From contig NZ_JAGHRE010000019.1 in NCBI RefSeq assembly GCF_017743935.1, forward strand, positions 1-51,813: a stretch of DNA of 51,813 nt, given 5' to 3'. Made by a program: the position numbers and the translations under genes. Below, in pieces: positions 5,813 to 30,449 of the stretch (within the stretch, counting starts at the first letter, position 1; each line of letters begins with the position of its first letter). Under the pieces are notes generated by a model. It saw only the letters and a program-made list of their open reading frames with translations. It was not told the DNA's origin and did not search any database. The stretch comes from Tropicibacter sp. R16_0. GTDB lineage: Bacteria > Pseudomonadota > Alphaproteobacteria > Rhodobacterales > Rhodobacteraceae.

Positions 5813-10341
<4,529 letters not shown>

Positions 10342-26694: not shown

Positions 26695-27635
26695 GCACCG
26701 ACATCCTTGCCATCACCTTTCCGATCTACGCCGCCATCGCAATTGGCTATGTGGTCGTGAAACTGGGATGGTTCGGACAATCGGACATGCGCACCCTTGG
26801 CAAATATGTCATGGACATTGCCCTGCCTGCGCTTTTGTTCAACGCCATGGCCAGCCGCGACTTTGCCGAGGTGTTTCACCCCGGCTATATGTTGGTGTTT
26901 GCCTTGGGCGGCCTGGCGACAATCACCGTGAGTTATCTTTGGTTTACCGCCACAAGTACCGAGCCATCACGCCGTGCCGTGGCCGTCATGGGGACCACCT
27001 GTCCAAATTCAGGCTTCATCGGCTACCCAGTCATGCTGCTGACTTTTCCCGATCTGGCAGGCGTCATCCTGGCGCTGAACATGCTGGTCGAGAACATCCT
27101 GCTGATCCCGATCTGCCTGATCCTGATGGATCTGGCCCGAGGCGGTGAACAGGTCTCCATCTCGAAACGCGTGGCTGGCATCCTGTGGGGTGTCCTCAAG
27201 CGCCCGATGGTGATTGGCCTTTTGCTGGGGCTGGCCGTGTCGGTGGTGCGCGTCCCAATCCCCGGACCGGTCGCGCAGCTGTTCCAGATGCTCGCGGCGT
27301 CTGCCTCGGCGCTGTCGCTGGTTGTCATCGGCGGATCGCTGGCGGGGTTGTCTTTGCGTGGCAATCACTGGAAAGCGGCCCAGGTGGCACTCGGCAAGCT
27401 GATCCTGCATCCCGGCTTGGTGGCGTTGGCAACCGTCGCCGTCACTGCGATGGGGCTGTCACTATCAACCGAGCTGACCGCAGCCGTGATCTTGTCCGCT
27501 GCGATGCCCATGTTTGGAATCTACTCGGTCTTGGCGCAGGAAAGCGGGCACGAAGGCATGGCCTCGATCGCCATGCTGATTGCAACCGCCTTTGGGTTTG
27601 TCACGTTGTCGGTTTTGCTGGGTGCCCTGACTTAA
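26691..27635 (+). CDS. AEC family transporter
   Basis: A 314-residue membrane protein with about ten helices, starting at GTG ([20 protein letters not shown]). The 'LGKYVMDIALPALLFNAMAS' region and 'TCPNSGFIGYPVMLLTFPDL' are typical of auxin-efflux-carrier-type permeases, a family that includes the malonate carrier MdcF. It is coupled to the HD gene and converges on the CaiB-like/matB pair, sharing a TTAA stop region. A malonate role is suggested only by that neighbourhood. Confidence 0.85.
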   Translation: MSTDILAITFPIYAAIAIGYVVVKLGWFGQSDMRTLGKYVMDIALPALLFNAMASRDFAEVFHPGYMLVFALGGLATITVSYLWFTATSTEPSRRAVAVMGTTCPNSGFIGYPVMLLTFPDLAGVILALNMLVENILLIPICLILMDLARGGEQVSISKRVAGILWGVLKRPMVIGLLLGLAVSVVRVPIPGPVAQLFQMLAASASALSLVVIGGSLAGLSLRGNHWKAAQVALGKLILHPGLVALATVAVTAMGLSLSTELTAAVILSAAMPMFGIYSVLAQESGHEGMASIAMLIATAFGFVTLSVLLGALT

Positions 27636-28948
27636 TCCCAAGACGCGGGCGACGACCCCAACTCAGCCGATGGACGATCCCACCGCATCGGCGCACCGGC
27701 GACTTCGATCCCCGGCTTCAATCGCTTGGCCGGTCCCCAAGGTGAATTTTCGATCCAGTCATCCAAATCTGCAGGCGAAGATCCCGTTACTTCAGGCCCG
27801 GAAACAGGCTCTAAGTTGACCAAAACCTTTGCCGTGCGTGCCAAAGACAACCTCGCGCGGTGTATGCCATCGCCCCGCACCGCACTTGTCAGAGCCGATA
27901 TCACAGCCGCCGCCATGAAGTAGCCGGTGGCGTGATCCAGCGCCTGAACTGGCAGGGGATGCGGTTTGTCTGAACCCGACCAGCTCCTACCCGCATCGGC
28001 AATGCCGCAACTCATCTGCACCAGCGAGTCGAACCCGCGGCGCCCGGACCACGGCCCGGTCCAGCCATAGGCATCAAGGCAAACCTCGATCAGATTTTTC
28101 GGGCGATCCGGACCGATCATTGCGTCAAGCGCACCAGGTCTGTAGCCATGCACCAGCACATCCGCCTGTGCCAACAATTCCTGAAAAACTGCCTTATCAG
28201 AGCCTGTTTTCAAATCCAGATGGCAGCACCGCTTGCCAAGCGTCACATCTGGCACAACACCGGGTTCACCCCAACTCGCCGGGTCCACGCGCAGGACATC
28301 GGCCCCAAAGCCCGCCAGCGTCCGCGTGGCAACCGGGCCTGCCAACACACGCGTTAGATCAAGCACGCGCAACCCCTCCAAAGGACGATCCGCCGTTGCC
28401 TGCCACTCGCGAACCTGCCCATGATGGTGTTCCCAATTCACCAGCGGCTCGGACGCTACGGCCAAACCTTGCGGGTGCACCTGCCACGCCGCGCGGCTGC
28501 GCATGGCAGCGGCGGCACCACCAGCTTCGACAATTGCGTCCTCTAACGCGTTTGCGTCCCATCCAGACACCGCCTGCGCAACCACATCCCGATCGGCCAT
28601 GCACTCCAGCACGGACAAGGCCGCCGCGCGATGATGCGGTGCGTTGGTGTGCAGTTTGATCCAACCATCGCGGGTCTGGTAATCGCCGGCGATCGCGTCC
28701 CAGGACGGCGGCACCTCCCACCCTTGCGGATGGATCGACCAAGTGAACCAAAGCGAGGCCAACCGACGGTCGACCTGCACGTCAGGTTTTGGGCCAAGGT
28801 TCAAAGCCTCGACCAAATCCGCAACAGCGCCACCAACAGCACCCATCGACTGACAGGCCAGTTCGGTCACGGCAAAGCGGGATTTCCAGGCGCCCTCTCC
28901 GACCACTCGGGCTGGCGACGTTCCAAAGGCCTTGGCAATCTCATCCAT
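27632..28948 (-). CDS. CaiB/BaiF-type CoA-transferase homologue with permuted domain order
   Basis: A 438-residue protein starting MDEIAKAFGTSPARVVGEGA. The motif that normally opens a CaiB protein, 'LEGLRVLDLTRVLAGPVATR', appears only at residue 190, followed by 'LAGFGADVLRVDP', 'GYRPGALDAM' and 'RRGFDSLVQMSCG' with a candidate catalytic Asp307. Residues 85-165 ('IAGDYQTRDGWIKLH' ... 'RAAWQVHPQG') instead resemble the small domain that normally comes later. A helix-strand segment seems to occur twice (about 27-66 and 336-373). It overlaps matB by eight bases. Family membership is fairly sure, activity not. Confidence 0.8.
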   Translation of the reverse strand: MDEIAKAFGTSPARVVGEGAWKSRFAVTELACQSMGAVGGAVADLVEALNLGPKPDVQVDRRLASLWFTWSIHPQGWEVPPSWDAIAGDYQTRDGWIKLHTNAPHHRAAALSVLECMADRDVVAQAVSGWDANALEDAIVEAGGAAAAMRSRAAWQVHPQGLAVASEPLVNWEHHHGQVREWQATADRPLEGLRVLDLTRVLAGPVATRTLAGFGADVLRVDPASWGEPGVVPDVTLGKRCCHLDLKTGSDKAVFQELLAQADVLVHGYRPGALDAMIGPDRPKNLIEVCLDAYGWTGPWSGRRGFDSLVQMSCGIADAGRSWSGSDKPHPLPVQALDHATGYFMAAAVISALTSAVRGDGIHRARLSLARTAKVLVNLEPVSGPEVTGSSPADLDDWIENSPWGPAKRLKPGIEVAGAPMRWDRPSAELGSSPASWD

Positions 28949-30449
28949 CAGCAAAAATCCCGGAATAGGTTTCGCGTAGAGCTTTCTTTTGCACCTTACC
29001 CATGGTGTTGCGCGGCAATGCATCCAGCAAGATCACGCGCTTGGGCTGTTTGAACTTGGCCAACTGTCCCTGCAACGCTTCACTTACAGCCCGGGCCGAG
29101 GTTCCGCCGCCTTCGGGCACGACAACGGCGACGACCCCCTCGCCAAAGTCGGGATGCGGCGCGCCAATGACAGCACTTTCCAGCACGCCAGGCAGATCGT
29201 CGATCAGGCTTTCAACCTCTTTTGGGTAGACGTTGAAGCCACCAGTAATGATCAGGTCTTTCTCGCGGCCCACGATAGTTACGTATCCGTCGGCATCGAT
29301 CTTGGCCATGTCACCGGTGATGAACCAGCCATCGGGCTTCAACTCCTCGGCTGTCTTCTCTGGCATCTGCCAATAGCCTTGGAACACATTGGTACCGCGC
29401 ACTTCCAGTACTCCGATCTCGCCTGTGGGCACCTCGGCCCCTTCATCCATCACACGCGCTTCGACCCCCGGCAATGGAAACCCGACCGTTCCCGCGCGGC
29501 GTTCCCCGTCATAGGGGTTCGATGTGCTCATGTTGGTTTCGGTCATGCCATAGCGTTCCAGAATGCGATGGCCCGTGCGGGCCTCCCACCGCTCATGCGT
29601 GTCGACCAGCAATGGCGCCGAACCTGAAATGAAGAGCCTCATATTGCTCGCCCGTTCCCGAGTCAGGCGATCATCTGTCAATAGCCGCGTGTAGAAGGTG
29701 GGCACACCCATCAACGCGGTCGCAGTCGGCATCGCCTCTAGAATTGTATCCGGATCAAAACCGGGTAAGAACACCACCTTTGCACCGGCCAACAGTGCCA
29801 CGTTGGTCGCCACAAACAGCCCATGAGTGTGAAAGATTGGAAGCGCATGGATCAGCACATCGTCCGCCGTGAACCGCCAATAATCACGCAGCACGGTGGA
29901 GTTCGAGGCAAGGTTGTCATGGCTCAACATTGCGCCTTTAGACCGCCCCGTGGTGCCAGAGGTATAGAGGATCGCCGCCAGATCGCCGGGTTCCCGCGCA
30001 ACCACGTCGAACCCATCTTGCGCATCGGCCAGGTCCTTCAAGCTACCTTGCCCGGATGCGTCCAGCGTCAGGACCTTTGCCGTACCGGAAATGGCTGAAA
30101 TCTCTTCCAAGCGATTAGGATCGCAGACGACGACGCACGGGCTAGCGTCGCCAACAAAATACGCGACCTCGGGGCCGGTATAGGCCGTATTGAGAGGCAG
30201 AAAGATACCGCCTGCCATGACCGTGCCCAGGTAGAGCTCGATCGCCTGAATGGTCTTGGCCACTTGAACGGCCACCCGGTCCCCCGGCTCAACACCGCAG
30301 GATACCAAAGCTGCAGCCATCCGCTCGGCCCCAGCAAACAAGGCACCAAAACTCACCGTTTCACCGGCCTGCAAATACGCGAAAACATCATCCTCGCGTC
30401 CTGCCGAAGCCTCTTTGAGTTTTGAAATCAGGTGGTTCCGGTCGTACAT
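28941..30449 (-). CDS. matB: Malonyl-CoA synthetase (MatB-like AMP-forming ligase)
   Basis: A 502-residue AMP-forming acyl-CoA synthetase. The phosphate loop is 'AAILYTSGTTGRSKGAMLSH', the adenine motif 'ILERYGMTETNM', and the hinge/catalytic end 'GREKDLIITGGFNVYPKEVE' with the terminal Lys in 'LPRNTMGKVQKKALRE'. Length and 'SHDNLASNSTVLRDYWRFTA' point to malonyl-CoA synthetases rather than long-chain ligases; related substrates such as methylmalonate are possible. It is first in a two-gene unit with the CaiB-like gene, and divergent from a DMT transporter. Confidence 0.82.
   Translation of the reverse strand: MYDRNHLISKLKEASAGREDDVFAYLQAGETVSFGALFAGAERMAAALVSCGVEPGDRVAVQVAKTIQAIELYLGTVMAGGIFLPLNTAYTGPEVAYFVGDASPCVVVCDPNRLEEISAISGTAKVLTLDASGQGSLKDLADAQDGFDVVAREPGDLAAILYTSGTTGRSKGAMLSHDNLASNSTVLRDYWRFTADDVLIHALPIFHTHGLFVATNVALLAGAKVVFLPGFDPDTILEAMPTATALMGVPTFYTRLLTDDRLTRERASNMRLFISGSAPLLVDTHERWEARTGHRILERYGMTETNMSTSNPYDGERRAGTVGFPLPGVEARVMDEGAEVPTGEIGVLEVRGTNVFQGYWQMPEKTAEELKPDGWFITGDMAKIDADGYVTIVGREKDLIITGGFNVYPKEVESLIDDLPGVLESAVIGAPHPDFGEGVVAVVVPEGGGTSARAVSEALQGQLAKFKQPKRVILLDALPRNTMGKVQKKALRETYSGIFADG

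Follow-up and report, generated by a model that had tools for sequence, protein, structure and literature searches.

Class III CoA-transferases of the CaiB/Frc type, among them formyl-CoA transferase, YfdE, Rv3272 and mesaconyl-CoA transferase, share a Rossmann large domain carrying a catalytic aspartate, a small domain, linkers and C-terminal strands. For the mesaconyl-CoA transferase of R. castenholzii, the structural account assigns residues 1–216 and 340–407 to the large domain and residues 231–319 to the small domain, has helices α5, α7 and α8 of the two subunits in symmetrical contact in the middle of the interlocked dimer, and places the pocket between the large domain of one subunit and the small domain of the other (PMC9196870). 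YfdE is described likewise, with Asp173 and His233 coming from different subunits (PMC3720670), and the Frc-family reaction is reported to have an acyl-aspartyl anhydride and an aspartyl-CoA thioester as intermediates (PMC9813914). The canonical chain runs large–small–large and forms a ring through which the partner chain passes, with the aspartate of one subunit's large domain meeting the small domain of the other in each active site. Here, we describe a gene in a 51,813-nucleotide stretch of DNA from Tropicibacter sp. R16_0 (contig NZ_JAGHRE010000019.1, positions 1–51,813; the window) that encodes a homologue of these enzymes with a permuted domain order. Unlike in the canonical enzymes, the small domain comes first and the large domain follows, a segment of the large domain (columns ~160–207 of the alignment defined below) is present twice, and the ring of the canonical chain would be open.

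Two further arrangements of the fold bear comparison. In tandem-fused class III CoA-transferases (L166–L169, with open frames 803–841 residues long), one chain holds two copies, each matching the canonical model in canonical order, whereas the permuted family has only one large and one small domain. The benzylsuccinate CoA-transferase BbsEF also adopts the class III fold, its chains presumably in canonical domain order. Its structural entry (9fn0) contains two different, separate chains.

Results

The gene lies at positions 27,632–28,948 on the minus strand and encodes a protein of 438 residues, labelled P0001, with the ATG at 28,948 and the stop codon ending at 27,632. This ATG is favoured as the start because the open frame of a relative (L005) begins 9 bases ahead of the equivalent ATG and holds no earlier start codon. 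P0001 scored 132.6 bits against PF02515 (CoA_transf_3; curated cut-off 23.3), with residues 190–376 corresponding to positions 1–202 of the 366-position profile. It fell far short of the cut-offs of all seven NCBIfam families listed (best score 65.5 bits, against 750); the equivalogs compared included formyl-CoA transferase, succinate-glutarate CoA-transferase, CoA:oxalate CoA-transferase and mesaconate transferases. An earlier note on this DNA, which gave no strand for the gene, had placed the Rossmann opening at residue 190; the PF02515 match does begin there, while the motif itself, GLRVLDLTRVLAGP, spans residues 192–205.

Positions along the chain are given in canonical columns, those of an alignment of 34 canonical CaiB/Frc (PF02515) proteins from five genomes. 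In profile alignments, P0001 runs through columns 149–331, then 3–211, then 338–373: the end of the large domain with the linker and the small domain, followed by the large domain with the catalytic aspartate and, last, the C-terminal strands. The domain order in P0001 is permuted relative to canonical CaiB/Frc; the large–small–large order of the canonical enzymes is absent, and the chain holds a small domain beside a single Rossmann large domain rather than the two complete copies of the tandem-fused type.

Profiles of the N-terminal half carry this assignment. A profile of residues 1–185 (23 rows) aligned with columns 148–329 of eight CaiB proteins of the same genome (E 8.7e-7) and with columns 150–331 of the 34 canonical proteins (E 5.9e-9; score 66.0, where the highest score from 60 column shuffles was 26.5); with 64 rows, the match covered columns 149–331 at E 2e-11. 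The C-half profile fell on columns 3–211 (E 3.2e-46). Residues 85–165 had been proposed in the earlier note to be the small domain, and a 64-row profile of residues 85–180 places them there, on columns 236–331 (E 3.1e-9). The idea of a permutation required the N-terminal half to correspond to the distal portion of a CaiB protein rather than to some unrelated domain, and this is what the profiles returned.

On the minus strand, the small domain (28,454–28,696) stands ahead of a linker of residues 166–187 (28,388–28,453) and of the large domain, residues 188–380 (27,809–28,387), which is also matched by folds in the PDB. The small domain carries an HTNxxHHR motif, the conservation of which is partly selected, in that the row-selection patterns demanded HTN-type and F/YD-xx-Q motifs. 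The span from residue L169 to residue L190 inclusive measures 22–31 residues, with a median of 23, across 64 rows. The C-terminal strands, residues 385–438 (27,635–27,796, minus strand), correspond to the stretch with which the canonical chain returns to its large domain at the C-terminus, matching columns 338–373 at E 1.5e-4 with a score of 28.7 (200 column shuffles gave no more than 16.1).

The 64-row alignment consists of P0001, 22 rows from 28 picked loci (six broken or odd frames omitted), 31 of 32 further loci (L087, without a match to the search pattern, being omitted) and ten diverged members; two pairs of rows derive from the same record, leaving 62 distinct rows. Sixty homologue loci gave 53 usable frames and seven that were not usable; 44 entered the model alignment and 34 the N-half alignment.

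Single-sequence searches with residues 1–180 of P0001 returned no Pfam and no PDB-sequence match, so that only profiles and relatives revealed the origin of the N-terminal half. When the N-halves of ten relatives were given to Pfam, seven matched PF02515 over stretches within positions 142–327, four of them with E < 0.001 and two above the curated cut-off. A Pfam-model search of four genomes returned one frame giving positions 148–286 (E 7.7e-4) and then positions 1–204. In ten diverged relatives compared with the 34-protein model, the C-half of each covered columns from 2–3 to 204–223 and was preceded by pieces of columns 147–338, mostly weak (E 3.2e-5 to 7.3).

The earlier note had suggested cutting the chain and exchanging its halves, and doing so improves the alignment at the profile level. 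With 64 rows, the native order scored 349.4 over 197 columns and the swapped order 414.8 over columns 3–374; when the small-domain columns were shuffled 100 times, the best score was 372.2. Among single rows aligned to the 34-protein model, the swapped order exceeded the native order in 62/64 and exceeded all ten shuffles in 54/64.

A segment of about columns 160–207, corresponding to canonical helices α7–α8, occurs twice in the chain. The first copy, residues 14–70 (28,739–28,909, minus strand), maps to columns 160–207 (E 5.6e-4, score 26.5), with a modest margin over 200 column shuffles (at most 20.9); the second, residues 325–380 (27,809–27,976, minus strand), maps to columns 159–209 (E 1.9e-8). 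AlphaFold2 predicts each as a 22-residue helix, a strand and a short helix (27–48, 57–60 and 61–66; 336–357, 362–368 and 369–377). The duplication rests on this common canonical position, because a direct comparison of the copies shows no recognisable similarity (hhalign E 0.35 and 0.29). The extra first copy is at least 87% filled in each of the 64 rows, rows that had been selected for possessing an N-half. The similar patterns that the earlier note had seen towards the two ends are borne out, inasmuch as both stretches map to the same columns. Its explanation, a tandem duplicate that lost its outer halves, holds insofar as a segment is duplicated and otherwise oversimplifies: in a tandem reading, columns 1–148 and the C-terminal strands are gone from copy 1, while copy 2 lacks the small domain (about 212–337) and retains the C-terminal strands (338–373).

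The second copy carries the predicted nucleophile, Asp338 (codon 27,935–27,937, minus strand), which stands at the start of helix α7, where the family has its catalytic aspartate. By a hand count along the alignment, it pairs with Asp175 of Rv3272, for which PDB entry 5yiy is titled as the D175A mutant. Asp338 is present in 64/64 rows (62/62 distinct) and was not part of the row-selection patterns; Gly204, Gly238 and Gly342 likewise occur in 64/64 rows. By hhalign pairing, the first-copy counterpart of the aspartate is Glu29 (codon 28,862–28,864, minus strand), and this position is not conserved: E in 18 of the 64 rows, A in 16, D in 15, V in 5, T in 4, R in 2, and G, Q, P and I in one each. 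One copy has thus retained the predicted nucleophile and the other not, with some members still carrying an aspartate in the first. Where YfdE has its GNxH loop, the profile alignment reads PPxWDxIAG in the P0001 family.

Substitution patterns were compared with four relatives, in the more distant of which synonymous change nears saturation; the ratio of nonsynonymous to synonymous rates (dN/dS) was 0.10–0.13 for residues 1–180, 0.07–0.12 for residues 186–380 and 0.11–0.21 for residues 20–67, with a looser C-terminal tail (0.05–0.31). By this measure, both halves of P0001 look constrained.

An AlphaFold2 model of P0001 built with 44 sequences had a predicted local distance difference test score (pLDDT) of 92.1 and a predicted template modelling score (pTM) of 0.94; the N-half modelled alone with 34 sequences reached 74.2 and 0.53, a difference between whole and isolated models which suggests that the N-half gains its order through contact with the C-half. 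Among the best 50 of 1719 Foldseek matches to the whole model (E up to 10), class III enzymes aligned over 202–264 columns at TMq 0.35–0.40 and 22–33% identity, and no chain among the matches listed covers the whole of P0001. Such partial coverage is expected of a permuted chain and by itself cannot prove a permutation. With the N-half model as query, the best 50 of 99 matches (E up to 10) were all class III CoA-transferases or related racemases, the best at E 5.5e-4.

The earlier note's belief that such proteins recur in related bacteria was well founded. A match spanning the small and the large domain at E 3.5e-40 or better was found in 45 of 398 sampled genomes of the window's phylum, which named relatives point to as Pseudomonadota; this is a lower bound in that at most four candidates were scored per genome; in three of the 45 the match starts only at residues 89–93, and eight further genomes gave a large-domain match only. 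The family is present in 11 of 61 genomes chosen as relatives, the window's own included, and in 26 plasmid records, among them Streptomyces, Tolypothrix and Ewingella, in 24 of which a single location accounts for at least 80% of the query. Outside the phylum, we found it in the Streptomyces and Tolypothrix plasmid records and in a contig titled as an Actinomycetes metagenome-assembled genome (L010).

An unrooted large-domain tree has 24 permuted rows as one side of a branch (support 100/99); L012, L022, L099 and L155 had been dropped to thin the set. A further branch (96/85) groups five second copies from tandem-fused CoA-transferases with the permuted rows and separates them from the 34 canonical proteins and from four tandem first copies. 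In a first tree, with 28 permuted rows, a long branch leading to a single tandem second copy had lain next to the permuted family, and the split persisted with five.

Two side observations concern these relatives. The window's genome itself also encodes a tandem-fused class III CoA-transferase (G000:C1:12242-14476; L165, L069); its first copy is without the first ~90 columns that are present in relatives L166–L169, and may be truncated or have another start. Separately, two diverged permuted homologues, L155 (784-residue frame) and L157 (565-residue frame), show twin-arginine-like signals before the N-half by eye, and both keep the catalytic aspartate.

Directly upstream of the permuted gene lies matB, encoding malonyl-CoA synthetase (28,941–30,449, minus strand; NF005702 at 791 bits, cut-off 558), and the two frames overlap by exactly 8 bases, as had been noted. 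We surveyed the flanking DNA, about 6 kb at most, of 75 chosen loci, 74 of them distinct (L005 and L210 being one record). The earlier note had taken matB as a clue to a malonyl- or related CoA substrate; this does not generalise, since matB adjoins the permuted gene in 7/74 distinct loci, all of them Rhodobacteraceae (by title or as 'same family'), and a pairing so confined is a poor guide to what the family as a whole acts on. At one same-family locus (L135:1861-4959), an amidase gene precedes the matB/permuted CoA-transferase pair.

In 9/74 distinct loci (L139, at 6508-7698, L141, L173, L175, L198, L199, L204, L205 and L207), including Ewingella (Gammaproteobacteria) and Azospirillum (Alphaproteobacteria), the upstream neighbour is a divergently transcribed, citrate-synthase-like gene. 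The L139 protein, the one subjected to a domain scan, combines PF00285 with an N-terminal HTH_17, and the other eight share 39–60% identity with it in BLAST comparisons. A single ordinary citrate synthase is encoded in the window's genome, which lacks a close relative of the helix-turn-helix (HTH) form. The divergent HTH-citrate synthase may act as a regulator that senses a metabolite, or as an enzyme that handles citryl-CoA. We considered a citryl-CoA function for the permuted enzyme and do not claim it, as the helix-turn-helix and the divergent position fit a regulator equally well. Elsewhere, the neighbours are a PrpF protein and an aconitase in Shinella sp. WSC3-e, and an ATP-binding cassette (ABC) transporter operon in Ruegeria sp. 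TM1040, where the homologue is WP_011537292.1.

Discussion

We consider it likely that P0001 is a class III CoA-transferase whose chain, with the small domain and an extra α7–α8 placed first, amounts to half of a canonical dimer, with an intramolecular active site and no interlocking. With the duplicated α7–α8 standing directly before the small domain, it is simplest to read the N-half as the partner's piece. The chain combines a large domain bearing Asp338 with the α7–α8–linker–small-domain piece otherwise supplied by the partner subunit; packed at the partner's position, that piece would complete the active site within a single chain, and the chain's own small domain would be replaced by a short connection (about residues 378–394) to the C-terminal strands, leaving the ring open. 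An internalised partner piece would explain why the interface helices are kept twice. The earlier note expected a permuted chain to thread differently; judged by its topology, it would probably need no threading at all. By analogy with the family, Asp338 would attack the acyl-CoA to give an acyl anhydride; an aspartyl-CoA thioester would follow, from which CoA would pass to an acceptor acid.

Several observations weigh against this reading. P0001 alone yields no Pfam match over residues 1–180, and the N-halves of three of the ten relatives lack a PF02515 match (one has a weak match to an unrelated family, two have none). In the swap experiments, shuffled blocks also extend to column 374, which leaves the score informative and the span not; 2/64 rows showed no gain over the native order and 10/64 failed to beat all ten shuffles; and P0001 alone against the eight-protein model gave a best domain score of 104.1 swapped, 103.0 native and 105.0 with the C-half only. 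Taken singly in profile alignments, the C-terminal tail reaches only 52% probability, its match being weaker or absent and not significant in smaller alignments, and the first copy of α7–α8 only 30%, which adds to the lack of direct similarity between the copies. The N-half Foldseek matches listed have root mean square deviations mostly near 13 Å, with only two at E < 0.001. Lastly, the AlphaFold2 model is of a single chain, and P0001 may still dimerise.

The alternative that survives best is an obligate dimer in which two permuted chains exchange their small domains and each active site is built from two subunits, the sequence of domains along the chain being all that differs from the canonical enzymes. 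The canonical enzymes are described as dimers with shared active sites (PMC3720670, PMC9813914, PMC9196870), and a linker of 22–31 residues might reach a partner. We nevertheless hold such an exchange to be unlikely: the extra α7–α8 would seem superfluous in it, yet this segment has a dN/dS of 0.11–0.21 and is at least 87% filled in 64/64 rows, and the single-chain model packs well on its own (pTM 0.94).

With regard to the substrate, the overlap with matB and its recurrence in seven loci, together with the amidase gene ahead of the pair in one genome, could be taken to mean that the enzyme is a malonyl-CoA:acid CoA-transferase partnering MatB. We find this doubtful, given that all seven loci are Rhodobacteraceae and the neighbours differ elsewhere, the most widespread of them being the divergent HTH-citrate synthase (9/74 distinct loci); moreover, a malonyl-CoA decarboxylase is encoded on another contig of the window's genome, so that MatB needs no partner here. 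A role in carboxylate-CoA metabolism is likely.

Asp338 and the three glycines, invariant in 64/64 rows, and a dN/dS of about 0.1 in both halves render it improbable that catalysis has been lost and that the protein retains the fold in a structural or regulatory capacity. Consistent with such a loss, PPxWDxIAG replaces the GNxH loop of YfdE, and no paper on an activity of a permuted CoA-transferase was found in the open-access literature searched. Two relatives also bear the twin-arginine-like signal sequences seen by eye; CoA is not expected where twin-arginine-signalled proteins go, which makes such a signal odd for a CoA-dependent enzyme. That residues 1–185 are simply an unrelated domain fused to a truncated CaiB large domain, as the empty Pfam and PDB sequence searches with residues 1–180 might suggest, can be dismissed with near certainty in the face of N-half profiles collinear with columns 149–331 (E 2e-11; 66.0 against at most 26.5 in shuffles), of seven relatives out of ten whose N-halves match PF02515 and no other family, and of N-half fold matches that, among the best 50 of 99, all belong to the class III family.

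As to how a half-dimer chain could have arisen, the grouping of tandem second copies on the permuted side of the tree favours a tandem-fused ancestor, with the kinship uncertain since all these branches are long. A tentative scenario, which we rate at slightly under an even chance, is that interlocked subunits were fused in tandem and one large and one small domain were then deleted, leaving a monomer that works as a half-dimer, its α7–α8 copy being the internalised interface.

The class III CoA-transferase fold is already known; we found no description of a permuted class III CoA-transferase in the open-access literature searched, a scope outside which most subscription journals lie. The annotation of these genes gives no hint of a differing domain order: of 25 plasmid records listed (of 26), 17 name the product 'CoA transferase', one 'hypothetical protein', and seven leave it unnamed. 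Mutually threaded dimers pose an old question, that of how they fold and how evolution enters and leaves such a topology. The permuted family, a single group in the tree, looks like an exit from interlocking with the duplicated interface helices still visible, and a permuted enzyme set against a canonical enzyme of the same fold offers a testable comparison on interlocking.

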